From Alphaproteobacteria bacterium (GTDB lineage Bacteria; Pseudomonadota; Alphaproteobacteria; MPNO01; VGEU01), in contig VGEU01000003.1 of NCBI GenBank assembly GCA_016869145.1, positions 1-64,000 on the forward strand: DNA of 64,000 nucleotides, in the 5' to 3' direction. The notes beneath the pieces were generated by a model. The model was not told the DNA's origin, searched no databases, and saw nothing but the letters and a program-made list of their open reading frames with translations. Below are positions 7,369 to 63,760 of the stretch, in pieces. Position 1 is the stretch's first letter. Each line of letters starts with the position of its first letter. Both the position numbers and the translations under genes were made by a program.

Positions 7369-8864
7369 CTAGCGCTCCGCCGCCAGACGAAGCCCGCGCG
7401 GCACGAGGCGTCGCTCGGCCGCATCAAAGGCGCCCTGGACGATAAGCGCGAGCAGCGCGGCCGGAACCGCGCCCTCGAGGATGAGCGCGGTGTCGTCGAG
7501 ACGGATGCCGGTCAGGATCGGCTGTCCATAGCCGCCGGCTCCGATCAACGCGCCGAGAGTCGCCGTCCCGACATTGATCACGGCCGAGGTCTTGATCCCG
7601 GCGAGGATCGCGCGCGAGGCGATCGGAAGCTCGACGAGCCGGAGCCGCGCGCGTGGCGAGAGCCCCATGGCTTGCGCCGATTCGGCGAGCGGCCCCGGCA
7701 CGTCGGTGATGCCGGCGTGGGTGTTCCGGACGATCGGCAGGAGGCTGTAGAGGAAGAGGGCGACGATCGCCGGGCCCGCACCGATCCCGAACACGGGGAT
7801 CATGAAAACGAGGAGCGCGAGCGAGGGCACCGTCTGCACGACGCCAACGACGGCGAGGATCGCCTGGCCGAGGCGCGCGAGCCGCGCGGCGAGGATGCCG
7901 AGCGGGATCGCGACGATGATCGCGGCGGCGAGCGACACGGCGACGAGGCCGAGATGCTCGAGCGTGCGCTCCCAGAGCCGTCGCACGAGCTCTTGCTCGG
8001 TGATCTCGGCGCGAATGCGGAAGCTCGCCGCCACGAAGTCGGCGGCGATCCGCGCCTCGGCGACCCGCTCGATCTTAGCCTTTGCGTTGAGCCGGGCCAT
8101 CGTCGTCTCGTCGATGCGCCCGGCGAGACGGTCGAGCGCGGATACGACGCCGGGCGCGCGGTCGCGGAGGTCGAGCCGGTAGACGACGAGCGCGCCGTAA
8201 TGCGGGAAATGGCCGCGATCGTCGGCGAGCACGCGAAGCCCGTAATAGGCGATCTCGGCGTCGGTCGTGTAGACGTCGATCGCGTCGATGTCGCCGGCGG
8301 CGAGCCCGCGATAGGCGAGATCGTGATCGAGCCCGCGCACATCGGCTTGCGGCAGACCGTAGCGGGCGCGGAGCGCCGGCCAGCCATCGGCGCGGTTGAG
8401 GAACTCCTCGCTGAAGCGGATGCGGAGCGCGGGATGGCGGATGAGATCGGAGATCGCCCGCGCGCCGAGCCGCTCGGCGGTCGCCGGCATCACGGCGATC
8501 GCGTAGGTATTGTTGAAGCCGAGCGGGCGGGTCATGCCGATGCCTTCGGCGGCGAGCGCGGCGGCGAGTGCCGCATCGTCGGCCGCTACGCGTCCGCCCA
8601 GGATCTCCTGCACGAGCGTGCCGGAGTACTCGACATAAAGATCGATCTCGCCCGCCTTGAGCGCCTGCCACAGGATGCGCGTGCCGCCGAGCTCGCGTCG
8701 ATGGGTCGCGCGAGCGCCGGCGTCCACGGCGAGGCGGACCGCGATCTCGCCGAGGATCACGGATTCGGTGAACTTCTTCGAGCCCACGCGCAGCTCGGGT
8801 GCCGCCGCCATCGCCGGCAGCGCCAGCGCGATCGCGACCAGGAGCGCGAGGAGGACCCGACGCA

Positions 8865-8868
<4 letters not shown>
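7369..8868 (-). CDS. Betaine/choline-type ABC transporter, fused substrate-binding (N-term) and permease (C-term) protein
   Basis: Signal peptide, then OpuAC-like VGSKKFTESVILGEI...GEIDLYVEYSGT, then permease EAA-like region and TM segments. Confidence 0.85.
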
Positions 8869-9623
<755 letters not shown>

Positions 9624-9698
9624 GAGAACCGATCGGGCCGCGTCGCACAACCTCCACCGGCCGCCTGCCTTGCCGCTGCGCTCGAAACCTGATAGCGC

Positions 9699-10931
9699 AT
9701 GCCGGCGGGCCGCGGTGCAGCGCGCGCCCAGGCGAAGGGTTCGATGGCGGCGACGGTCCTTACCCGCGGGCGGCAGGCGCAGGCGATCGGGACGATCGCC
9801 GTCGCCCATGCGCTCAGCCACTTCTATCTCTTGAGTTTGCCGCCGCTGTTTCCGCTCCTCAGGGCCGACCTCGACGTCGATTTCGCGGCCCTCGGCCTCA
9901 TCATCACCGTCTACAACATCTCGACCGGCGTGCTGCAGACGCCGGTCGGGCTTCTCGTCGACCGGATCGGCGCGCGCCGGGTGCTGGTCGGGGGTCTCTT
10001 CCTCAACGCCGCGGCGGTCGCCGCCGCGGGCTTCGCCGATTCGTTCTGGGATCTTCTGATCCTCTACTTCATCGCCGGCGCGGGGAACAGCGTGTTCCAC
10101 CCCGCCGACTACGTGATCCTGTCGGCCTCGATCCAGAAGGATCGGCTGGGACGCGCCTTCAGCCTGCACACGCTCGGCGGATCGGCCGGCTTCGCGGTGG
10201 CGCCGGCGATCATGCATTTTCTCGCCGATTACACCAATTGGCGCACGGCGCTTCTGATCGTCGGTCTCGCCGGCACGGTGCTCGCGGTTCTGATCTTCCT
10301 CATGAGCGGCACCATCCGCGATACCGCGGCGCGCAAGAAAAACGGTGAGAACGGCCTCACCTGGCGCCTTCTCTTCTCGCGCCGGGTTCTCCCGTTCTTC
10401 TTCTTCTTCGTCGTGCTCGCCGCTGCCGGCGTCGGCATCCAGTCCTTCGGCGTCGTCGCGCTGGTCGATCTCTATGGCGCCTCTCTCGGGGTCGCCAACT
10501 CGGTGCTGACGGTGTTCCTCGTCCTGTCGGCGCTCGGCGTCTTCCTCGGCGGCTTCTACGCCGACAAGACCAAGCGCCCCGACCTGATCCTCCTGGTCGC
10601 GTTCCTGGTCTGCGCCCTGCTGATGGCCCTGATCGGCACCGGCGCCTTGCCGCTCTGGCTTCTCGTCGGCGCGATGGCGCTGACCGGCTTCCTCCGCGGC
10701 TTCGTCAATCCGCCGCGCGACATCATGCTCCGCAACATGACGCCCGATCATCTGGTCGGGATCGTGTTCGCCTTCGTCACCACAGGCTTCGCGGCGGGCC
10801 AGGCGGTGATGCCCGTCGTCTACGGCACGTTCATGGATACCGGTGATCCCGCGTCCGTGTTCTGGATCGCGGCCCTCTGCTATCTCCTGGTCGTGCCGAT
10901 GGTGTTCGTCGCCCGGCCGCGGGCGCGATAG
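9699..10931 (+). CDS. MFS transporter
   Basis: 12-TM-like hydrophobic protein; GLLVDRIGARRVLVGGLFLN motif; start may be 9744. Confidence 0.85.
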   Translation: MPAGRGAARAQAKGSMAATVLTRGRQAQAIGTIAVAHALSHFYLLSLPPLFPLLRADLDVDFAALGLIITVYNISTGVLQTPVGLLVDRIGARRVLVGGLFLNAAAVAAAGFADSFWDLLILYFIAGAGNSVFHPADYVILSASIQKDRLGRAFSLHTLGGSAGFAVAPAIMHFLADYTNWRTALLIVGLAGTVLAVLIFLMSGTIRDTAARKKNGENGLTWRLLFSRRVLPFFFFFVVLAAAGVGIQSFGVVALVDLYGASLGVANSVLTVFLVLSALGVFLGGFYADKTKRPDLILLVAFLVCALLMALIGTGALPLWLLVGAMALTGFLRGFVNPPRDIMLRNMTPDHLVGIVFAFVTTGFAAGQAVMPVVYGTFMDTGDPASVFWIAALCYLLVVPMVFVARPRAR

Positions 10932-11011
10932 GCTTCACGTTCGCTTTATCGGCCTTCCGCCCGCCGTGCCGGCTCCTATCTGAGCGGGGGTGACGGACAA
11001 GGAGACGGCCG

Positions 11012-11872
11012 ATGCGCGACGTCGAACGGACCATCCTCGCGGTCAAGGCGATCGGGACCGCGGTCGTCTGCGCGATCGGGCTGCTCGCCACCGCGGCGCA
11101 CGCCGCGCCGCGCGCCGAGCTCTGGCCGCGTTGGGCGGCCCACGATCCGGCGGCGACCGCGACGATCGATCACGCCGCCTGGGACCGCTTCCTCAAGGCC
11201 CATGTCGCGCCCGACGGCGACGGGCTCAACCGCCTCGGCTATGGCCGCATCCCGGCCGCCGACCGCGCCACGCTCGGCGCCTATGTCGACCGGCTCGCCG
11301 CGACGCCGATCTCGCGCTTCTCGCGCGACGAGTAGCGCGCCTACTGGATCAATCTCTACAACGCGCTCACCGTGAAGGTCGTCCTCGACCACTATCCGGT
11401 GGCGAGCATCATGGACATCAAGATTTCGCCCGGCCTGTTCGCGCCGGGTCCATGGGGTCGGAAGCTGCTGCGCATCGAGGGCGAGGAGGTCTCGCTCGAC
11501 GACATCGAGCACCGCATCCTGCGCCCGATCTGGCGCGATGCACGCCTCCATTACGCGGTGAACTGCGCCTCCGTCGGCTGCCCCAATCTGCAACGGGACG
11601 CGTTCACCGCGGCGAACACGGAGACGCTCCTCGACCGCGGCGCCCGTGAGTATGTCAACAGCGGGCGGGGCGTCGTCGGCGCCGGGACCAATCTCTACGC
11701 CTCGAGCATCTACAAGTGGTTCCGCGAGGACTTCGACGACAGCGAGACTGGAGTTCTCGCCCATCTCCGCCGCTACGCCGCGCCCGATCTCGCCCGCGCG
11801 CTCGAAGGCCGGCGCGACATTTCGGCCTATCAGTACGATTGGAAGCTCAATGACGCGCGCCCCGGTTCATGA
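11012..11872 (+). pseudogene. DUF547-domain protein interrupted by an in-frame TAG
   Basis: ORFs 11012-11335 and 11372-11872 share a frame; FSRDE-TAG(11333-11335)-RAYWINLYNALTVKVVLDHYPVASIMDI reads through a conserved DUF547 core. Confidence 0.8.
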
Positions 11873-12580
11873 CCGCCCGGCGGCCGGCAACGCGCCGCGC
11901 GCTCTTCGCCGGTAGTAGAGTCGCGCGAGCGACGGCACGCCGAGATGGAAGAGCGCGTGGATGACGAGCCAGCCCGCGACGATCGCCGCGGGCCGGCGAC
12001 CCGCGAACTTGCGTGACGAGGTGACGACCGGCGGATTGTCGATGACGATCGTGCGACCGCGTCGCTCCATGCGGCGGACGAGGTCGTAGTCCTCCATCAG
12101 CGGGATCGGGCGGAGCCCGCCGATCGCCTCGAGCGCACCGCGGCGAATGAAGATCGTCGAGTCGCCATAGTAGAAGCCGTGGCGCCTGATCCAGGCATAG
12201 AACCGCTCGAGCCAACGATCGAACGGCGTCGTGCCGTCGAACAGGATCCGGAAATTTCCGCCGATCAGGTCCGGGTCGGCGTCGAGCACTGCGGCGATCC
12301 GCGCGATCCCACCCGGCGGCAGAACCGTGTCGGCATGAAGGAGGACGAGCGCATCGCTGGTGCTCGCCGCGATCCCGGTGGCGATCTGGCGACCGCGGCC
12401 GCGTTCGATGCGGATCACGCGAGCACCGGTGGCTGTCGCCGCGGCGATGGTGCCGTCGCGGCTCCCGCCATCGACGACGATGACCTCGACCGGCCCGGTC
12501 ACTGCCGCGAGCCGGGCAAGGAGGCCGGGAAGCCGCACCGCCTCGTCGAGGACCGGTACGATCACCGAAAGCCGGATCAT
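11867..12580 (-). CDS. Family 2 glycosyltransferase (TIGR04283-like)
   Basis: SVIVPVLDEAVRLPGLLARL, EVIVVDGGSRDGT, LVLLHADTVLPPG, LMEDYDLVRRM. Confidence 0.82.
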   Translation of the reverse strand: MIRLSVIVPVLDEAVRLPGLLARLAAVTGPVEVIVVDGGSRDGTIAAATATGARVIRIERGRGRQIATGIAASTSDALVLLHADTVLPPGGIARIAAVLDADPDLIGGNFRILFDGTTPFDRWLERFYAWIRRHGFYYGDSTIFIRRGALEAIGGLRPIPLMEDYDLVRRMERRGRTIVIDNPPVVTSSRKFAGRRPAAIVAGWLVIHALFHLGVPSLARLYYRRRARGALPAAGRS

Positions 12581-13337
12581 CGCGCACCCGCCCCGGCGCC
12601 GAACAGACCGAGGTCGGCGAGCGTCCGCTCGTGATCGCGCCAGCGCGCGCGCAGATAGCCGCGATGCAGCCGGGCACGGATCAGCGCCATGCCGCCCGGG
12701 CGGGATGGCCGCGTATCGGCGGCGGTCATCCAGAGGTCACGGCTCCAGCGATGGATGTGCGCGCGGGTTTCGGGTTCGAGCGCGGCGAACGCCGCGGCGA
12801 GATAGAGGCGGCCAAAGGCGACGCGGCGCGCCTCGTCCTGGTCGGCGATCGTCGTCACGCGGCGGAGCGTCGGGCAGGGAAAGAGCCGCCCCGCATCCCG
12901 CATCAGTTTCACCGCCTCGCCCTCGAGCACGACATGGAGCGCGACGACGAGGGCCGCCGGATCGCCGTCCCAGGCGAGTGCCGCGGCGACCCCGGCGCGG
13001 ATCCGTCATCCGCCGGCACAATGTCGCCGAGCCGGGCGAGATAGGCGGTGTAGAGCACGCGGTGCCGGGCCTCGTCGGCGGCCTGGGTCGCGAGGAAGCG
13101 GCGCTGCGGCCCGGGCGGCAGGCGACCGAGGAGGCGGGCGCAAAGCGCCTCGGCCGCGATCTCGCCGTGAAGGAGCTGGCTCACGATCCCGACATAGTCG
13201 GCGCGGCCCATTCAGCGCGGCGGCACGACATCGTGCGCCGCGTCGACGCACGCGTCGGCGGCCGCCGCCTCGCCCTTGACGATCAGCGCGGCGAGACGCT
13301 CGTCGGTCCGGCCGCGCGTCGTATCGGAGTATGCCAT
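12577..13337 (-). pseudogene. Ferritin-like/diiron-type protein broken by an in-frame TGA and a frameshift
   Basis: MAYSDTTRGRTDERLAALIV...AHDVVPPR-TGA(13212-13214)-MGRADYVGIVSQLLHGEIAAEALC continues in frame; a frameshift near 12990-13015 is needed to join ...LARLGDIVPADD to ...AAALAWDGDPAALVVALHVVLEGEAVKLM. Confidence 0.6.
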
Positions 13338-13471
13338 CGGACCAGTCCTCGGATAAGGCGACCCGAGGAGTCTGGCGATCCGGGTCGTCGCCACCCAATC
13401 ACGCGGTTTCACGTTCCTGCGACGATCGTCGCGGCAAGGGTTCGCTTACGCCGAATGTCTAGGGTGCGGAC

Positions 13472-13885
13472 ATGTCGACCCCGGGACGCCGTAGCCGCTC
13501 CCATGCCGGCCGCTGCCTCGCGCGGCCGCTCCTCGCCGCCTTCGGCTGGTTCAACGTCGCGCTCGGCGTGATCGGGATGATCGTGCCCGGCATGCCGACG
13601 ACGGTGTTCCTTCTGATCGCGCTGTGGGCCTTCTCGAAGAGCTCGGAGCGGTTCCGCATCTGGCTCTACGAGCATCCGCGTCTCGAGCGGCCGCTCCGCG
13701 ACTGGCACGAGCATCGCGTGATCCCGCGCCGCGCCAAGGCGCTCGCGGTCGGCTCCATGAAGGCGAGCCTCCTGTTTCTCGCGCTCGTCGTCGCCGAGGA
13801 CTGGATGCTGCCCGCGATCGTCGCCGCCACCATGGCGCCGGTCGCGCTCTTCATCCTGACCCGGCCGTCGCGGCCGCTCGCGTGA
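13472..13885 (+). CDS. DUF454 (YbaN family) membrane protein
   Basis: GWFNVALGVIGMIVPGMPTTVFLLIALWAFSKSSERFRIWLYEHPRLERPLRDW. Confidence 0.88.
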   Translation: MSTPGRRSRSHAGRCLARPLLAAFGWFNVALGVIGMIVPGMPTTVFLLIALWAFSKSSERFRIWLYEHPRLERPLRDWHEHRVIPRRAKALAVGSMKASLLFLALVVAEDWMLPAIVAATMAPVALFILTRPSRPLA

Positions 13886-51249: not shown

Positions 51250-52266
51250 ATGAAGATCATCGACTGCCACGCACATGTGAGTGCGCCAGCCGAGTTGTGG
51301 GCTTTCAAGGCTTCGCTCGTCTCGCATCGCGGCGCGCACGGGAGGGGAGGGCTCAAGTTCTCCGACGAAGAGATCCGCGCCGCTGTCGAGAAGAAGCGCT
51401 TCGAGGGCGGCGACAAGAGCCACATGGCCTTTCTCGACGAGGTCGGCACGCACGTGCAGTGCGTCTCGCCACGCCCGTTTCAGATGATGCATTCTGAGAA
51501 GCCGGCGAAAATCGTGCAGTGGCTCCACGAGGAGGTCAACAACGTCATCCACCGCCAGACGCTGCTCTACCCCGATCGCTTTGTCGGCATCGCCGGCCTG
51601 CCGCAACCGGCTGGCGAGCCGCTGGGGATGGCGATCGCGGAACTCGAGCGGTGCGTGAAGCTCGGCTTCAAGGGCTGCCTACTCAATCCCGACCCTTACG
51701 AGAACTCCGGCATCAAAGCGCCGGCGATGGGTGAGCGCTACTGGTATCCGCTCTACGAGAAGCTCTGTGAGCTCGATGTGCCCGCACACATCCACGCGAC
51801 CGGCTCGCACTGCCCGGAGCGCGAACCCTATACGCTCCACTTCATCAACGAGGAGACGACCGCAACCTATGGCCTGGTCAGCTCGGATGTGTTTAAGGAC
51901 TTCCCGACGCTCAAGATCGTGATGAGCCACGGCGGCGGTGCGATCCCGTTCCAGCTCGGCCGGTTCCAGGCAAGCTCGGCGCGCAAGCCCGGCGGCCAGC
52001 TGTTCGCCGATGCCATGCGGAACCTCTACTACGACACGGTGCTCTACACTGAGGAGGCGCTGCGCCTGCTCGTGAAGGTCGTCGGTGCCGATCGCTGCCT
52101 GTTCGGTGCGGAGTGTCCAGGCGTCGGCTCGGCGCGCAACCCGGAAACGGGCCGGACCTACGACGACATCATGCCGCTCATCCGCGACGCCTCTTGGCTG
52201 AGTGCCGAGGACAAGGCCGGCATTCTCGCCGACAACGCGCGCAAAGTGTTCAAGCTCACGCAGTAG
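51250..52266 (+). CDS. Amidohydrolase family protein, LigJ/4-oxalomesaconate hydratase-like
   Basis: MKIIDCHAHVSAPAELW..., DVPAHIHATG, LKIVMSHGGGAIPFQLGRFQA, DRCLFGAECPGVGS. Confidence 0.75.
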   Translation: MKIIDCHAHVSAPAELWAFKASLVSHRGAHGRGGLKFSDEEIRAAVEKKRFEGGDKSHMAFLDEVGTHVQCVSPRPFQMMHSEKPAKIVQWLHEEVNNVIHRQTLLYPDRFVGIAGLPQPAGEPLGMAIAELERCVKLGFKGCLLNPDPYENSGIKAPAMGERYWYPLYEKLCELDVPAHIHATGSHCPEREPYTLHFINEETTATYGLVSSDVFKDFPTLKIVMSHGGGAIPFQLGRFQASSARKPGGQLFADAMRNLYYDTVLYTEEALRLLVKVVGADRCLFGAECPGVGSARNPETGRTYDDIMPLIRDASWLSAEDKAGILADNARKVFKLTQ

Positions 52267-52283
52267 ACGGGAAGAACACGACG

Positions 52284-53297
52284 ATGGCGAGGATCGTCCT
52301 GGCGATGGCCACCACGCACGGCCCGCAACTCCATACCACAGTGGAGCAGTGGGCGTTGCGTGTGAAGGCGGATCAGGCGCGCAAGCATCCCTATCGCCGG
52401 GAGATGCGGAGCTTCGATGAGCTGGTGGCCATGCGGAGCGGCGAAGGGCTCGAGGCGAAGTCGAGCCCGACAGGGATGGCCGAATCCCACCGTCGCTGCC
52501 AGGCCGGCATGCGGGTGCTCGCCGCCAAATGGGACGAGATCAAGCCCGATATCGCGGTCGTGCTCGGCAACGACCAGAACGAGATGTTCGAGACCGAGGA
52601 GCTGAACCCGGCGTTCTTCGTCTTTTGCGGCGAGAAGATCCCGAACTATCTCCAGTCCGATGCGCGACGCAAAGAGCTGCCGCCGGGTGTTGCGGAAGCC
52701 GAGCATGGCCACGCGACCGAGACCTATACCGAATACGATGGCGTGCCCGATCTCGCCCGGCACATCGTGGACACGTTGATCGCGCGTGATTTCGATGTCG
52801 CGGTCTCGTCGAGATGGCCGCGCAACGCCCGGAACGGGGCCGGCCACGCGTTCGGGCACATCTACCGCCAGGTCATGCGCGATAAAGTCGTGCCGAACGT
52901 GCCTATTCTGCAGAACACGTTCTTCCCGCCGAACCAGCCGTCGGCGCAGCGCGCCTATGACTTCGGGCGTGCGGTCAAGCAGGCGATCGACAGCTGGGCC
53001 GACGACAAGACGGTCGCCGTATTCGGCTCGGGCGGCATGAGCCACTTCGTCATCGACGAACAGTTCGACCGCGCGTTCGTCGATGCGCTGGCCCGGAAGG
53101 ACAAGGACTACCTCGCCTCGATCCCGCTTTCCGATCTGCAGTCGGGCACATCGGAGCTCAAATCCTGGATCACGCTGGCGGGCGTACTGAAAGATGTCGA
53201 CTGCACGATGCACGAGATCGACTACGTGCCCTGCTACCGTTCGGTCGCGGGCACAGGAACGGCCAACGGCTTCTATTGGTGGGAGATGACGCGATGA
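52284..53297 (+). CDS. Class III extradiol dioxygenase, LigB-like
   Basis: LAMATTHGPQLHTTVEQWA, DIAVVLGNDQNEMFETEELNPAFFVFCGE, NVPILQNTFFPPNQPSAQRAYDFGRAVKQAI, AVFGSGGMSHFVIDE. Confidence 0.82.
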   Translation: MARIVLAMATTHGPQLHTTVEQWALRVKADQARKHPYRREMRSFDELVAMRSGEGLEAKSSPTGMAESHRRCQAGMRVLAAKWDEIKPDIAVVLGNDQNEMFETEELNPAFFVFCGEKIPNYLQSDARRKELPPGVAEAEHGHATETYTEYDGVPDLARHIVDTLIARDFDVAVSSRWPRNARNGAGHAFGHIYRQVMRDKVVPNVPILQNTFFPPNQPSAQRAYDFGRAVKQAIDSWADDKTVAVFGSGGMSHFVIDEQFDRAFVDALARKDKDYLASIPLSDLQSGTSELKSWITLAGVLKDVDCTMHEIDYVPCYRSVAGTGTANGFYWWEMTR

Positions 53298-53959
53298 GGG
53301 GACCTCCGGCAGATCTCGTCGCGCGCTTGCGCAAGCTGGATTGTTGTGCGGTCTCCGACGCTCTCGATCAGTTGAAGCTCGGCGGCGTCGTGACGGGGCT
53401 GTTCACCCAGGGTTCTGGGACAGGCCGCATCTCCGGCCGCGTGATCACCGTCAAGCTCGGCGTCGGCCAGCCGAAGGATGCACCCCCCAAGCATCTCTGC
53501 ACAACCGCGGTCGAGATCGGTGGTCCCGACGACGTCATCGTCATCGAGCAGCGTTCCGGCGTGGAAGCGGGTAGCTGGGGCGGCCTCCTCTCCCTCGGCG
53601 CGAAGACAAAGGGTATTGCCGGCGTCGTAGCCCATGGCCCCGTGCGCGATATCGATCAGGCGATCGAGATGGGATTTCCGATTTTCGCGAGCGGCTACAC
53701 CTCGCGCACGGCGCGCGGCCGGATCGTCGAGATCGGGACCAACGTCGCGATCGCGATCGACGATGTCGCGGTCTCCCCGGCGGACTACGTGGTCGCCGAT
53801 CGGAGTGCGGTGATCTTCATTGCGGCGGCGAACATCAGGGAGGTGCTCGAGACGGCCGAGCGGATCACCGCCAAGGAGGATGCCATGGCCAAAGCGATTC
53901 TGGCCGGTACGCCGATCGGAACGGTGATGGGCGCAAGCTATGAGCACATGTTGAAGTAG
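53294..53959 (+). CDS. RraA/LigK-like aldolase (4-carboxy-4-hydroxy-2-oxoadipate aldolase-like)
   Basis: LDCCAVSDALDQLKLGGVVTGL, GGLLSLGAKTKGIAGVVAHGPVRDIDQAIEMGFPIFASGYTSRTARGR, DYVVADRSAVIFI; ATGA overlap with the upstream gene. Confidence 0.82.
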   Translation: MRGPPADLVARLRKLDCCAVSDALDQLKLGGVVTGLFTQGSGTGRISGRVITVKLGVGQPKDAPPKHLCTTAVEIGGPDDVIVIEQRSGVEAGSWGGLLSLGAKTKGIAGVVAHGPVRDIDQAIEMGFPIFASGYTSRTARGRIVEIGTNVAIAIDDVAVSPADYVVADRSAVIFIAAANIREVLETAERITAKEDAMAKAILAGTPIGTVMGASYEHMLK

Positions 53960-54007
53960 GCGCCCTCCTCGTCCGCATCAACCTTTCAGAGCCCAACTGT
54001 CGACCAC

Positions 54008-54892
54008 ATGGCAAGAACCAAAGAACTCGACCCAGCGTCCCGCGTCACCAGACGATCGAAGGCGGCTCCCGCGTCCCGTGCCATTGCGCAACCAGTCGGG
54101 TGGCGGAGCGCGCGTAGCGAGCCGGCGGGATCGAGGATCGAACGCCAGATCAAGACCGCAATTCTGACCGGGCAGTGCCGCGCGGGAGACTTTCTGGGAT
54201 CGGAGAACGAGCTTGCCGCCAGCATGGGCGTGAGCCGACTTCCTGTTCGTGAGGCGGTCAGCCGGCTGCAGGCGCTCGGGCTCGTCGAAGTCAAGACAGG
54301 CGCGGGCGGCGGCGTACGGGTCGCCACGGGAAAGCCCGATTACATCGCCGAGCTTCTGGCGATACAGCTCGTACTCGATCGCCTCGACGCAGAGGAGGTC
54401 CTGGTCGCCCAGCGGATCGTCGAGGTCGCCGCCGTCGGCATGGCCGCCCGGAATGCGACCGCCGAAGCGCTGGCGCTGATGCGCGGCGCACTGGATGAGG
54501 TCGAGCGCCTTGTCGAGCAACCCGAATTGTTCACGGCTGCCTCCATGGCCTTTCATGCGGCGATCGGCGGCGCCTCGCAGAACCGGTTCCTGTCGATCAT
54601 GATGCAGGCCATCGCGATCACGCTCGAGCAGGTCAATGCGCCGGATACGACCGTCGAAGTCGCGCGCATGGTGGCGGGGCGCCACCGCAAACTCTTGCAC
54701 GCCATTGAGGCCCGCGATGAGGCGGCGAGCGTCGCGCTGATCGCGCATCATCTTGAGCGCGTCCATCGCCATGTCCTGGCGCGCCTCGGAGGAAATGCGG
54801 CCTCGACGCACGATCCACGTCGCTCCGATAAGGCAAAGACTCCCGTCGTGGTGAGGCGGGAGAACGGACGAATGCGGAGAACCGACACGTAA
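54008..54892 (+). CDS. GntR family transcriptional regulator (FCD type)
   Basis: RIERQIKTAILTGQCRAGDFLGSENELAASMGVSRLPVREAVSRLQALGLVEVKTGAGGGVRV; helical ligand domain with AFHAAIGGASQN. Confidence 0.9.
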   Translation: MARTKELDPASRVTRRSKAAPASRAIAQPVGWRSARSEPAGSRIERQIKTAILTGQCRAGDFLGSENELAASMGVSRLPVREAVSRLQALGLVEVKTGAGGGVRVATGKPDYIAELLAIQLVLDRLDAEEVLVAQRIVEVAAVGMAARNATAEALALMRGALDEVERLVEQPELFTAASMAFHAAIGGASQNRFLSIMMQAIAITLEQVNAPDTTVEVARMVAGRHRKLLHAIEARDEAASVALIAHHLERVHRHVLARLGGNAASTHDPRRSDKAKTPVVVRRENGRMRRTDT

Positions 54893-55014
54893 GGAAGGTT
54901 CGGCCGATCCTGAAGGACCTACGCGTCGCCAAGGCGACTGCCGGTGTGCGATGACTAAGAGCGCCGGCAGCGCCGTTGAGCGATGCGCGCGCGTGAGAAT
55001 GGAGACCCGATTTC

Positions 55015-56187
55015 ATGCGAACGCAGGTGGGAATTGTCGGGGCCGGGCCGGCCGGGCTCTTGCTCGGCAGAATGCTGCAGAACCTCGGCATCGACGCGGT
55101 GGTGTTGGAGAGCAGGTCCCGCGATTACGTCTTGGCGCGGATCAGGGCGGGCGTGCTCGAGCAGGGTACGGTCGACACGCTGATCGCGCAGGGCATCGGC
55201 GATCGGTTGCGGCGTCAGGGTATGGTGCACGAGAACATGCAGATCCGTTGGGCGGGTCGGCGGAACGATTTCACTGTCGAGGACGAGAAGGGACGGCGTC
55301 TGACGACCTATGGTCAGGCCGAAATCGTCAAGGACCTGATCGAACGGCGTGAGGCGGACAATTTGCCCCTCTTGTTCTCTGCGCCCGCGCAGCGAATCGA
55401 GAATGTCGAGACGCGGCCGCGTATCCATTTCACGCACGAGGGGGCTGAGAGGACGCTCGATTGCGATTTCGTGGCAGGCTGCGACGGATTTCATGGCGTC
55501 TGCCGGAAGCACATTCCGAACGCCGACGATCGCACCTTTCTCAAGACCTATCCCTATGGCTGGCTCGGCATTCTGGCCGAGGCCGCACCGCACGCCGAGA
55601 TCCGCGGGTTCGCTCACAGTACGCGGGGATTTGCCGTCGCCTCGGCCCGGTCGCCGAAGATCGGTCGGCTCTACCTCCAGGTCGATCGAAACGAGGACAT
55701 CGAACGGTGGAGCGACGAGGCGATCTGGGACGAGCTCGACCGACGCTTCGAGGATGGGTCCGGCCACCGCCTCAATCGTGGTCGGATCCTGAAAAAGGAT
55801 CTCGCGCCGCTGCGTGCCTTCGTGTGCGAGGCCATGCAGCATGGCCGGATCTTCCTCGCCGGTGACGCCGCACATATCGTGCCGCCCTCCGGCGCGAAGG
55901 GGCTTAATTCGGCAGTCGGCGACGTCAGGGTTCTGGCGGAGGGCTTGCGCCGGCATTTCGCGGGGACGGGTTCCGATCTGCTCGATCACTATGCCGAGAT
56001 CTGCCTGAGGCGGATCTGGGCGACCGTGCATTGGTCGTGTCTCCTGACCGATACACTCCACATCGCGCCCAACCAGACAGGCTTCGACCTTCAGATGCAG
56101 TATGCGACACTGAACCACTGGGCGAAGACAGAGTTGGGGCGTCAGCACTTCTGCAATGCAATGCTTGGGTTGCCCTATGAGGTCTGA
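55015..56187 (+). CDS. 4-hydroxybenzoate 3-monooxygenase-like flavoprotein (PobA homolog)
   Basis: [98 protein letters not shown]. Confidence 0.9.
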   Translation: MRTQVGIVGAGPAGLLLGRMLQNLGIDAVVLESRSRDYVLARIRAGVLEQGTVDTLIAQGIGDRLRRQGMVHENMQIRWAGRRNDFTVEDEKGRRLTTYGQAEIVKDLIERREADNLPLLFSAPAQRIENVETRPRIHFTHEGAERTLDCDFVAGCDGFHGVCRKHIPNADDRTFLKTYPYGWLGILAEAAPHAEIRGFAHSTRGFAVASARSPKIGRLYLQVDRNEDIERWSDEAIWDELDRRFEDGSGHRLNRGRILKKDLAPLRAFVCEAMQHGRIFLAGDAAHIVPPSGAKGLNSAVGDVRVLAEGLRRHFAGTGSDLLDHYAEICLRRIWATVHWSCLLTDTLHIAPNQTGFDLQMQYATLNHWAKTELGRQHFCNAMLGLPYEV

Positions 56188-56278: not shown

Positions 56279-57235
56279 ATGAGAATGGGCAAGATCGACA
56301 TTTCGAATGCGACGCGCCCGACGCGGGCGCGGATCGGCGGCAGCGACAGAGATCGTGCAGCGCGCTTCAGCAAGCGCATGCCGCCTGCCGCCAAGCGCAG
56401 CGTGTTCCTCCGCAACAATGTCCTGCTGCCCATCAGGACGCCGCCGGTCAATCCGGAGCGCACTGAAATTCCCGACCCGCCGCAGGCCACCGAAGTGATC
56501 AAGCAACTGGTCCGCGACATGGGCGTCGATGACGTCGGCATCGCCGAGATCGATCGCCGCCTGCTCTTCACGCAGGCGGGCGAGCTTCAGCACACGAGGG
56601 CCATCGTCTACGGAATCGCGATGTCGTTCGACACCATGGCCGATATCGGTCCACGCTCGCAGGACGAGGTTCATCGCGTCTATCGCAAGCTCGACGAGAC
56701 CGGCGTCCGCCTCGCCCAGCATATCGCCGCCTACGGCTACAATGCCTCGATGCAGCCGAACGAGGGCGATGTGCCGCTGGTCGCCATGGCGCAAATGGCA
56801 GGCCTCGGCGAACTGGGCAAGCACGGCTCGCTGATCTCGCCGAAGATGGGTGCATCATTCCGGCTCGGCGCGGTGACGACCGACATGCCGCTCCTCGCCG
56901 ACGGACCGAAGGACTTCGGCTTCGATGAGGTGTGCACGAAATGCGGCGTATGCACCCGGTTCTGCCCGGGCGATGCGATCAACCCGGATAAGCAGGTCGT
57001 CAATGGGATCGAGCGGTGGCACGTCGACACGCCCGCCTGCGAGCCCTATTTCCACAAGCTCTATGGCTGCAAGATCTGCCTGATGGTGTGCCCGCTCAAT
57101 AGCCGTGGCATGTTCGGCCAAGAATTCAGGGCGGCGTCGAAGGTGCTCGTCCAGACCAAGGACGCCAAAGGAATGTTGCAGCTCATCGAGGCGCGCACCG
57201 ACATGAACTACGAGGACTTCAGCGATCTCGAGTGA
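56279..57235 (+). CDS. Short reductive-dehalogenase-like 4Fe-4S protein (RdhA core-like)
   Basis: MAQMAGLGELGKHGSLISPKMGASFRLGAVTTDMPLLADGPKDFGFDEVCTKCGVCTRFCPGDAI ... YGCKICLMVCPLN: RdhA-like core with two 4Fe-4S motifs; 318 aa, no Tat signal. Confidence 0.72.
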   Translation: MRMGKIDISNATRPTRARIGGSDRDRAARFSKRMPPAAKRSVFLRNNVLLPIRTPPVNPERTEIPDPPQATEVIKQLVRDMGVDDVGIAEIDRRLLFTQAGELQHTRAIVYGIAMSFDTMADIGPRSQDEVHRVYRKLDETGVRLAQHIAAYGYNASMQPNEGDVPLVAMAQMAGLGELGKHGSLISPKMGASFRLGAVTTDMPLLADGPKDFGFDEVCTKCGVCTRFCPGDAINPDKQVVNGIERWHVDTPACEPYFHKLYGCKICLMVCPLNSRGMFGQEFRAASKVLVQTKDAKGMLQLIEARTDMNYEDFSDLE

Positions 57236-61079: not shown

Positions 61080-61355
61080 CGCGACCGTCCGAACCGAACG
61101 CGTATCGCCGTTGCCCTGATTGGCGTCGCGCTCGCGGTTGATCCGGTGATGGATCGCCGCGCCCGAGACATGGATCGGGCCGGCCTGGAAGCGCCGCGAC
61201 CATCCGCCGCGTCCCGCCGTCCTTGTCGGCGAGACGGGCGCGATCCCGTTCGCAATCCCTGGTCAGCCCCGTCCTCGGCTCGCTAAGATCGAAACAGCGC
61301 GACAGGGTTCGCGACGGGGATGCGCCCCGTCCGGCGTCCTCGACGGGAAGGATCG

Positions 61356-61535
61356 ATGAGCGGCAAGGAGATCAGATGGTCGGCCGGCGCGGGCGGCCCC
61401 GGTGCCCGCTCGGTGGTCGACGTGGTGGCAGAGGGGCTCCGTGCCGGCGTGAAGGTCTACGAGATCATGCGCGACGACGACCGGCTCTTCGCGCGCGCCG
61501 TCGACGGACGGCCGAGAAAGACGGAGGATTCGTGA
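61356..61535 (+). CDS. Small (59 aa) hypothetical protein upstream of the Rieske oxygenase
   Basis: MSGKEIRWSAGAGGPGARSVVDVVAEGLRAGVKVYEIMRDDDRLFARAVDGRPRKTEDS; TGATG stop/start overlap with the downstream gene. Confidence 0.5.
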   Translation: MSGKEIRWSAGAGGPGARSVVDVVAEGLRAGVKVYEIMRDDDRLFARAVDGRPRKTEDS

Positions 61536-62722
61536 TGGCAACGACGGCATCGACGACCGGCAACGCCGACCGCCGGCTCTACGCGCCCTATCTGGAGGCG
61601 ACGTGGGGGATCAAGAACCACTGGTATCCGGCGCTGTTCAGCCACGAGCTCGCCGAGGACGGCGTCAAGGGGGTGGAGATCGCGGGCGTCCCGATCCTTC
61701 TTCGCCGCGCCAAGGGCAGGACCTATGCGCTGCTCGACCGCTGCGTCCACCGCGGCGTCAAGCTCTCGCTCAAGCCGACCTGCTTCACCGACGACACGGT
61801 GTCGTGCTGGTATCACGGCTTCACCTTCGACGTCGTGAATGGCGCGCTGGTGTCGATCGTCGCCTCGCCGGACGATCCGCTGATCGGCAAGGTCAGGCTC
61901 CGCACCTTCCCGGTCGAGGAGCACAAGGGGATCATCTTCGTCTTCGTCGGCGACGAGGGCTATGAGCCGGTGCCGCCGCTCGCGGACGATCTGCCGTGGC
62001 TACCGCCCTGCGACTACGACTATCGCGCCGCCCATCCGCTCGACGACGAAACGGTCATGCTCGGCATCCGCCGCGTCGGCAAGGCGAACTGGCGGCTCGC
62101 GGTCGAGAACGGATTCGATCCCGGCCACGTCCTGATCCATCGCGACAACATCCTGATCCTCGCCTCCGGCCGCTCGATGGCGCTCGGCTACCGGCCGCTC
62201 AACGACGAGGCGATCAAGGCGTTCGAGGACGACGGGCCGAAGGGTCTGATGAACATGTATGGCACCGGCAATTACGAGCCGGTGGTCAACAATGACCGCC
62301 TCAACATCAAGAGCGCGGCGCGGCGCGAGTTCAACTTCACGGGCGTCCGCACCTCGATGTTCCTGCCCGGCGTGCTGATGGTCGAGAACTTCCCCGAAAA
62401 GACCTACGCCCAGTACGAATGGTACGTGCCGATCGACGACAAGACGCATGTGTACTGGCAGGTCATCGCCGGCTGGTGCCCGACGCCCGAGGATCGGAAG
62501 AACTTCGAGTTCCGGTTCAAACACTATTTCGAGCCGGTGGCGCTCCGCGACTTCAACGATCACGATCTCCACGCGCGCGAGGCGATGCAGGATTTCTATG
62601 CCAATGGCGGCTGGCAAGAGGAGGCGCTCTGCTCGATGGACGCGGTGATCGTGAGCTGGCGCAAGATGGTCGCCCGGCACAATCGCGGTATCCAGGAACC
62701 TCCGACGCGTCGCGGCCGCTGA
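61535..62722 (+). CDS. Rieske [2Fe-2S] oxygenase alpha subunit, CarAa (carbazole 1,9a-dioxygenase)-like
   Basis: GIKNHWYPALFSHEL, LLDRCVHRGVKLSLKPTC...SCWYHGFTF, ANWRLAVENGFDPGHVLIHRDNIL, LPGVLMVENFP...QYEWYVPIDDKTHVYWQ, collinear with remembered CarAa sequence. Confidence 0.85.
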   Translation: MATTASTTGNADRRLYAPYLEATWGIKNHWYPALFSHELAEDGVKGVEIAGVPILLRRAKGRTYALLDRCVHRGVKLSLKPTCFTDDTVSCWYHGFTFDVVNGALVSIVASPDDPLIGKVRLRTFPVEEHKGIIFVFVGDEGYEPVPPLADDLPWLPPCDYDYRAAHPLDDETVMLGIRRVGKANWRLAVENGFDPGHVLIHRDNILILASGRSMALGYRPLNDEAIKAFEDDGPKGLMNMYGTGNYEPVVNNDRLNIKSAARREFNFTGVRTSMFLPGVLMVENFPEKTYAQYEWYVPIDDKTHVYWQVIAGWCPTPEDRKNFEFRFKHYFEPVALRDFNDHDLHAREAMQDFYANGGWQEEALCSMDAVIVSWRKMVARHNRGIQEPPTRRGR

Positions 62723-62728
62723 GGGATC

Positions 62729-63760
62729 GTGGACGCGTCCGCCGTCATGTCGACCGTCCGGCTCTGCTTCCGCGACGGCGTCGAGCGCGCGATCGAGGCG
62801 GCGCAGGGCGAGAGCGTGCTCGCGGCCGCGCTCCGCGCCGGCGTGCCGCTCGTCCACCAGTGCGAATCGGGAAGCTGCGGCACGTGCATGGCCCGCCTCG
62901 TCGCGGGCGAGGCTTCGCTGCTCCCGGGGCGTGCGCTCTCGCTTCTCGCCGGCGAGATCCGCGACGGCTGGCGCCTCACCTGCTCGGTCGCCGCCGCCGG
63001 TGACTGCGCCTTTGCGCTCGACTATGCCTCGACCGTGCTCGACGGCCCGCAGCCGGCCGTGCTCGCCGCGACAGTGACCGCGCTCGACTGGGTCGCAAAG
63101 ACTGTGGCGCGGCTCGAGATTGCGATCGAGACGGCGGACTTCACGTTCGAGAGCGGCCAGTATGTCCGCATCCGCGTGCCCGGCACCGACGCCTGGCGTT
63201 CCTACTCGATGGCGACGACGGCGAAGGAATTGCCGCGGATGCAGTTTCTCATCCGCCGCCTCGACGGCGGCGCGATGTCGGCCTGGCTCCGCGATGCCTG
63301 CGCGCCTGGCGCTTTGGTCGAGATCGAAGGTCCTCTGGGTTCGTTCGGCCTCACCGCGTCGAAGGGGCCCCGCCTCATGATCGCAGGCGGAACCGGGCTC
63401 GCGCCGATGCTCGCCATGCTCGATACGCTCCGTCAGCGCCCCGGGCCGCGGCTTCCGGTTCTCCTCTGCTTCGGCTGCACCGGCGAGGACGATCTCTTCT
63501 ACGTGGATGAGCTCGAGCTTCGTCGCTTCTGGATGCCGAACCTCAAGACCCGTGTGGCCCTGATGCATCGGCCCGCCGGTGTGTTCGACGGCGCGATCGG
63601 CACCGCGGTATCGCTGATCGAGGACGCCGATCTCCGCGCCCCCGGGCTCGACGCTTTTCTGTGCGGACCGCCGCCGATGATCGAGGCGGCGCGCGGGCGA
63701 TTGATTGCGGGCGGTGTGCCCGAGACGGCGATCCACGCCGAGCACTTCCGCCCGACCTGA
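62729..63760 (+). CDS. Ring-hydroxylating oxygenase reductase (2Fe-2S ferredoxin + FAD/NAD domains)
   Basis: PLVHQCESGSCGTCMARLVAGE plant-type 2Fe-2S; FESGQYVRIRVPGTDAWRSYSMA; LMIAGGTGLAPMLAMLDTL. Confidence 0.92.
   Translation: MDASAVMSTVRLCFRDGVERAIEAAQGESVLAAALRAGVPLVHQCESGSCGTCMARLVAGEASLLPGRALSLLAGEIRDGWRLTCSVAAAGDCAFALDYASTVLDGPQPAVLAATVTALDWVAKTVARLEIAIETADFTFESGQYVRIRVPGTDAWRSYSMATTAKELPRMQFLIRRLDGGAMSAWLRDACAPGALVEIEGPLGSFGLTASKGPRLMIAGGTGLAPMLAMLDTLRQRPGPRLPVLLCFGCTGEDDLFYVDELELRRFWMPNLKTRVALMHRPAGVFDGAIGTAVSLIEDADLRAPGLDAFLCGPPPMIEAARGRLIAGGVPETAIHAEHFRPT

Follow-up and report, generated by a model that had tools for sequence, protein, structure and literature searches.

Does the open reading frame at the end of a run of ring-cleavage genes in this DNA encode a reductive dehalogenase (RDase), and does it work together with the PobA-like flavin hydroxylase encoded before it? 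The window, i.e. the whole stretch of 64,000 nucleotides that was analysed, contains this 318-aa frame at 56279–57235 on the forward strand, as confirmed by the ORF listing and its translation. A preliminary description had regarded the product as a short, soluble RdhA-like protein that either feeds the PobA homolog by dehalogenation or represents a new corrinoid/Fe-S reductase subtype. In an end-to-end alignment, all eight orthologs begin with MGxIDI, so the start is probably at 56285 and not at 56279, which would give a product of 316 aa. Residue numbers are counted from this methionine (MGKID). The features discussed below are listed in Table 1.

Table 1. Location of genes, motifs and active-site codons. 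Positions refer to the window unless another locus is named.
Feature	Position	Strand	Basis or remark
LigY-like meta-cleavage-product hydrolase (amidohydrolase)	51250..52266	+	LigY 5vn5 470 bits; 4-oxalomesaconate hydratase 192 bits
Class III extradiol dioxygenase, LigB family	52281..53297	+	profile and sequence matches
RraA/LigK-like aldolase	53276..53959	+	profile and sequence matches
GntR/FCD-family regulator	54008..54892	+	Pfam
PobA-like flavin hydroxylase	55015..56187	+	TIGR02360 441.7 bits; Phe/Met at positions 201/385
Short RdhA-like corrinoid/Fe-S reductase gene (probable start)	56285..57235	+	ORF opens at 56279; orthologs begin MGxIDI
Tyr133 codon	56681..56683	+	PceA Tyr246 / NpRdhA Tyr426, by alignment
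Asn159 codon	56759..56761	+	equivalent to PceA Asn272; Gly in clade B, conserved in A and C
Arg193 codon	56861..56863	+	PceA Arg305 / NpRdhA Lys488, by alignment
FeS1 motif CTKCGVCTRFCP	56933..56968	+	translation, ortholog and homolog alignments
FeS2 motif CKICLMVCP, C252 upstream	57068..57094	+	translation, ortholog and homolog alignments
Small protein downstream of clade C short RdhA	L076 8459..8797		
Small protein downstream of clade C short RdhA	L066 9989..10300		
Small protein downstream of clade C short RdhA	L068 9927..10280		
Small protein downstream of clade C short RdhA	L077 2838..3143		
Small protein downstream of clade C short RdhA	L078 4474..4848		
Small protein downstream of clade C short RdhA	L081 7701..7946		
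Small protein fused to clade C RdhA C-terminus	L059		
Small protein fused to clade C RdhA C-terminus	L065		

The protein contains the core AGLGELGKHGSLISPKMGASFRLGAVTTDMPL quoted in the preliminary description together with two [4Fe-4S] signatures. Both match the published RdhA motifs CXXCXXCXXXCP and CXXCXXXCP (PMC6797604). All eight Fe-S cysteines are present and are conserved among the short homologs. The Tat motif RRxFxK was not found in the N-terminus, in line with the earlier view of a short, soluble protein, and the respiratory combination of a Tat signal with an rdhB anchor gene is lacking.

Among the NCBIfam profiles, RDH (TIGR02486) ranks first with 112.2 bits (E = 4e-32), below its curated cut-off of 160.35 bits. 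QueG (TIGR00276) follows with 72.5 bits against a cut-off of 200. The RDH profile matched 34 of the 34 short homologs tested and gave 119–125 bits for those from loci L136 and L063; the controls scored 204 (BhbA), 289 (a PceA-like protein) and 269 bits (Dehalococcoides). As the curated RDH threshold is not reached, we name the protein RdhA-like and do not count it as a formal member of the RdhA family. In the Pfam search, ferredoxin-type models were the only matches of note and DUF1730 was absent. PF13486 was not among the matches of the 34 short homologs, but this model is uninformative because BhbA and a PceA-like protein miss it as well; its absence was dropped as an argument against RdhA. 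Since the short proteins miss both the NCBIfam cut-off and PF13486, they are likely to carry automatic labels such as 'ferredoxin' or 'QueG-like'.

The second rank of QueG (epoxyqueuosine reductase) raises the alternative that the protein is QueG itself, a tRNA enzyme resembling it, or an Fe-S protein that has no corrinoid. The window protein shares with QueG the overall class III corrinoid fold and the single-module size. E. coli QueG, however, scores 510 bits on its own profile and contains DUF1730, RDH was the better match in all profiles, and the fold similarity to QueG is lower (see below). Moreover, the genome seems to have its own queG, on a contig with tgt and queF, which argues against the window protein being the tRNA enzyme. 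A QueG identity was rejected on these grounds, and we regard this whole group of explanations as very improbable.

A phmmer search against the PDB returned NpRdhA, the cytosolic catabolic RDase of Nitratireductor pacificus, as the first hit (E = 4e-31), aligned over its second, catalytic module (residues 299–586). Because a second, weaker alignment of the short protein falls on residues 63–221, the N-terminus of NpRdhA is consistent with a degenerate repeat of its catalytic module. A profile built from 34 short homologs found NpRdhA (1e-65), the PCE RDH complex (7e-47), PceA (3e-41) and QueG (4e-12). The AlphaFold2 model of the short protein (pLDDT 80, pTM 0.82) gave the same ranking in Foldseek, with TM-scores of 0.71 for NpRdhA (E about 1e-16), about 0.6 for PceA and the RDH complex and 0.5 for QueG. 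In this model the corrinoid-binding module is complete, and corrinoid binding is predicted. Missing relative to NpRdhA are the degenerate N-terminal repeat and the C-terminal tail; a reductase module is lacking as well. The earlier remark on the lack of an obvious full N-terminal cobalamin domain is therefore misleading, as the complete catalytic module of NpRdhA is aligned and a corrinoid-binding fold is modelled. Neither of the outcomes named at that time as fatal to an RdhA-like protein occurred: the best profile match was not QueG or a generic ferredoxin, and the predicted structure does not lack a corrinoid fold.

Active-site equivalences were obtained by counting positions along the HMMER alignments with NpRdhA and PceA. 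The catalytic tyrosine, whose presence had been proposed as a check, aligns with Tyr133, a position at which the QueG core segment gives no alignment. It is a tyrosine in 58/58 short homologs and in 12/12 NpRdhA-type proteins. Mutation of the residue equivalent to Tyr246 left NpRdhA inactive (PMC5500849). Position 193 is an arginine in 57 of the 58 short homologs and a lysine in all 12 NpRdhA-type proteins. With Arg at this position and the Tyr/Asn/Arg set of PceA retained, the active site resembles that of PceA more than that of NpRdhA, as judged by alignment. The NpRdhA pocket for 3,5-dibromo-4-hydroxybenzoate appears not to be conserved, because Lys488 is replaced by Arg193 and Arg552 by Phe256.

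In the phylogenetic analysis, an initial tree that included E. coli QueG together with further long branches proved unstable, and these were left out of the final one. The short proteins (about 310–340 aa) form three clades, A with the window protein, B and C, each supported by 100/100, and the NpRdhA/BhbA clade is separate from them (100/99). Support for A, B and C as one clade is 93/86, which does not establish monophyly. The tree supports a corrinoid/Fe-S reductase subtype apart from the NpRdhA/BhbA clade, the second of the two options in the preliminary description. Matches at E 1e-15 were found in 22 of 27 genomes of the order, and a single genus supplies close orthologs (71–73%) from five genomes. 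Scanning GTDB contigs yielded further orthologs in MAGs of Devosia (78%), Beijerinckiaceae (73%) and Rhizobiales (72%), as well as one distant match. In even samples that include the window's own genome, 17 of 385 genomes of the class match at E 1e-40 and 3 of 399 of the phylum at E 1e-30. No description of RdhA-like proteins of about 320 aa was found in the portions of the open literature covered, and the group of small alphaproteobacterial enzymes is apparently uncharacterised so far.

Compared with known systems, the window protein is closest to NpRdhA in its catalytic module, the two [4Fe-4S] motifs, the catalytic Tyr and the lack of a Tat signal, but NpRdhA has about 700 aa. BhbA of Comamonas sp. 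7D-2 and the fused RdhA-reductase proteins share the catalytic module and an aerobic, catabolic context; BhbA, however, comprises 1013 aa and includes both the N-terminal repeat and, at its C-terminus, a phthalate-dioxygenase-type reductase, neither of which is present here. The respiratory PceA of Sulfurospirillum has the equivalent active-site residues and the Fe-S motifs, but a longer N-terminal part, and the window protein lacks that part as well as a Tat signal and a membrane anchor gene. The Roseobacter Ros_A3X954 / Pararhodobacter debrominase-deiodinase is likewise cytosolic without a Tat signal, whereas PF13486 and a longer N-terminus set it apart (PMC13101508). A 408-aa protein (L095) with motifs similar to Ros_A3X954 grouped with PceA and not with the window family in the first, unstable tree.

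The genes upstream of the RdhA-like gene suggest a ring-cleavage pathway. The extradiol dioxygenase is probably LigZ-like because of its LigY partner. According to the molecule name of the 5vn5 entry, LigY uses a lignin-biphenyl cleavage product, so the substrate of the pathway here may be a biphenyl-like acid. The PobA-like protein does not reach the TIGR02360 equivalog cut-off of 538.7 bits, and its Phe and Met replace Tyr201 and Tyr385 of p-hydroxybenzoate hydroxylase, the pair by which that enzyme activates the phenolate. Positions 51250–56187 look like an uncharacterised meta-cleavage pathway of the biphenyl or lignin-dimer type, whose PobA-like enzyme is devoid of this pair. The RdhA-like gene stands at the end of the same-strand run; the next Pfam-supported gene downstream, an alpha/beta hydrolase, is on the opposite strand. 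A consensus promoter scan gave no match, and the three terminator-like sites found equal the number expected by chance. No halogen-specific gene, dedicated reductase or ferredoxin was found beside the RdhA-like gene in the window.

This arrangement had led to the proposal that the RdhA-like protein removes ortho-halogens from a 4-hydroxybenzoate-like compound, which the neighbouring enzyme then hydroxylates and the extradiol dioxygenase cleaves. The two genes lie on the same strand, separated by 97 bp in which no terminator-like site was found. There are also precedents for RdhA as a neighbour of class III extradiol dioxygenases or of pobA, namely the Nitratireductor OM-1 plasmid and Comamonas pBHB, the latter with both a pobA gene and a partial pobA close to bhbA. 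In relatives, however, neither half keeps the other. In 5/5 genomes of the sister genus the ortholog lies closely behind a TauD/TfdA-family and a RidA-family gene, in the Beijerinckiaceae and Rhizobiales MAGs behind polA, and on the Devosia contig between other genes. Conversely, the LigY/LigZ/RraA/PobA set recurs in the same order on Aminobacter plasmids (57/54/49/59% identity) with no RdhA in 17 kb, and Polymorphobacter has the LigY-dioxygenase-RraA core with no RdhA annotated in 19 kb. Because the ring-cleavage set recurs there without RdhA, the two are separable modules, and PobA coupling as a conserved unit was rejected. The residues replaced in both proteins, Tyr201/Tyr385 of PobA and Lys488/Arg552 of NpRdhA, also speak against the proposal, as does the LigY-like hydrolase, which points to a biphenyl- or lignin-dimer-like substrate instead of 4-hydroxybenzoate. 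Coupling to the neighbouring PobA is unlikely, and we give the dehalogenation–hydroxylation–cleavage sequence only a small chance. The RdhA-like gene probably forms a catabolic or detoxification module of its own, placed beside the ring-cleavage/PobA set by happenstance.

A functional context for the short proteins is provided by another genome, G763. At its locus L136 (G763:C11:31000-50500), positions 7455–13546 hold five short RdhA-like genes in tandem, clade-B-like and 26–30% identical to the window protein. The locus also encodes a stand-alone phthalate-dioxygenase-type (PDR) reductase, which shares 35–38% identity with the corresponding fused module of BhbA-type RdhAs, a catechol 2,3-dioxygenase above its cut-off, a MobR-like phenol regulator, a chlorocatechol/catechol 1,2-dioxygenase homolog, PcaF (3-oxoadipyl-CoA thiolase) and an iron alcohol dehydrogenase homolog. 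By its gene content, it reads as BhbA split into separate polypeptides. By analogy, and from a clade other than that of the window protein, this gives the strongest support from gene context for a role of the short-RdhA group in catabolic dehalogenation. A reductase of the G763 type was not found in the window genome at E 1e-20, in a search without a positive control.

We consider it fairly probable that the window protein is a cytosolic, single-module relative of the RDases that works like a stripped-down catabolic RdhA, with dehalogenation as its most likely activity. In the mechanism we propose, the nitroreductase-like fold would hold the corrinoid next to the two [4Fe-4S] clusters. A cellular reductase or ferredoxin, the presumed electron donor, would pass electrons through the clusters to generate Co(I). 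The reduced corrinoid would then break a carbon-halogen bond in a small substrate, probably an aromatic one, with Tyr133 as the putative proton source, assisted by Asn159 and Arg193.

The same fold could also serve a non-halogen substrate, for instance by reductively removing a leaving group such as hydroxy or alkoxy, or by reducing an epoxide. QueG, which reduces an epoxide, demonstrates other chemistry on this fold, and the window protein scores below the curated cut-offs of both RDH and QueG. Single genomes hold many paralogs, set among diverse catabolic genes with no obvious halogen genes, and orthologs stand behind a TauD/TfdA-family dioxygenase. Against this, the active site contains the Tyr/Asn/Arg set of the RDases, and both sequence and fold came out closer to RDases than to QueG whenever the two were compared. 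We judge a non-halogen substrate to be unlikely, though it deserves more weight than the PobA coupling, and prefer dehalogenation.

The corrinoid would likely be imported. The window genome has one cobalamin riboswitch, with adjacent genes that, read from their sequence, encode a TonB receptor and probably a cob(I)alamin adenosyltransferase, and CobN was not found in this genome; B12 uptake is likely for these reasons. The riboswitch contig, G000:C43 (L082 9056–11716, 13239–13451), also carries the long NpRdhA-like gene of the genome.

Known catabolic RdhAs are large (about 700–1070 aa) and hard to make. A natural catalytic core of ~316 aa would offer a simpler scaffold for studies of B12-dependent dehalogenation. 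The abundance of paralogs in alphaproteobacteria suggests that, in this class, corrinoid-dependent reduction of halogenated (or other) aromatics inside the cell is more frequent than one would expect from the few characterised enzymes. Tentatively, and with less confidence than for the window protein itself, we envisage a large alphaproteobacterial radiation of minimal, single-module corrinoid/Fe-S reductases, with at least three clades and several copies per genome. It might represent an aerobic-compatible 'split BhbA' with separate electron donors, acting on natural halogenated or otherwise substituted aromatics and possibly including chemistry other than dehalogenation.

Several further observations were made. 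The window genome contains a second short RdhA, clade C-like and interrupted by one TAG stop (L081, G000:C9:6788-7513), which is either a pseudogene or an assembly error. A protein of ~80–125 aa is encoded directly downstream of clade C short RdhAs, and in two genomes it is the C-terminal part of a fusion with the RdhA (Table 1). Pfam gave no match for the two fused tails, and the small protein is possibly a previously unrecognised partner subunit. A 346-aa QueG/RdhA-related protein on G000:C20 (L085 4722–5762) scores below the curated cut-offs, and genome G004 has two tandem relatives of it (L087 14590–16617); we read it as a further, uncharacterised class III corrinoid-type family. Within the window, positions 61223–63760 encode a Rieske oxygenase of the homotrimeric ring-hydroxylase type (PF11723) and its Fer2-FAD-NAD reductase, adjoining a class III aminotransferase. 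On Comamonas pBHB (L119 3306–3488), the pobA-like fragment upstream of bhbA spans 61 codons and is 62% identical to the window PobA.
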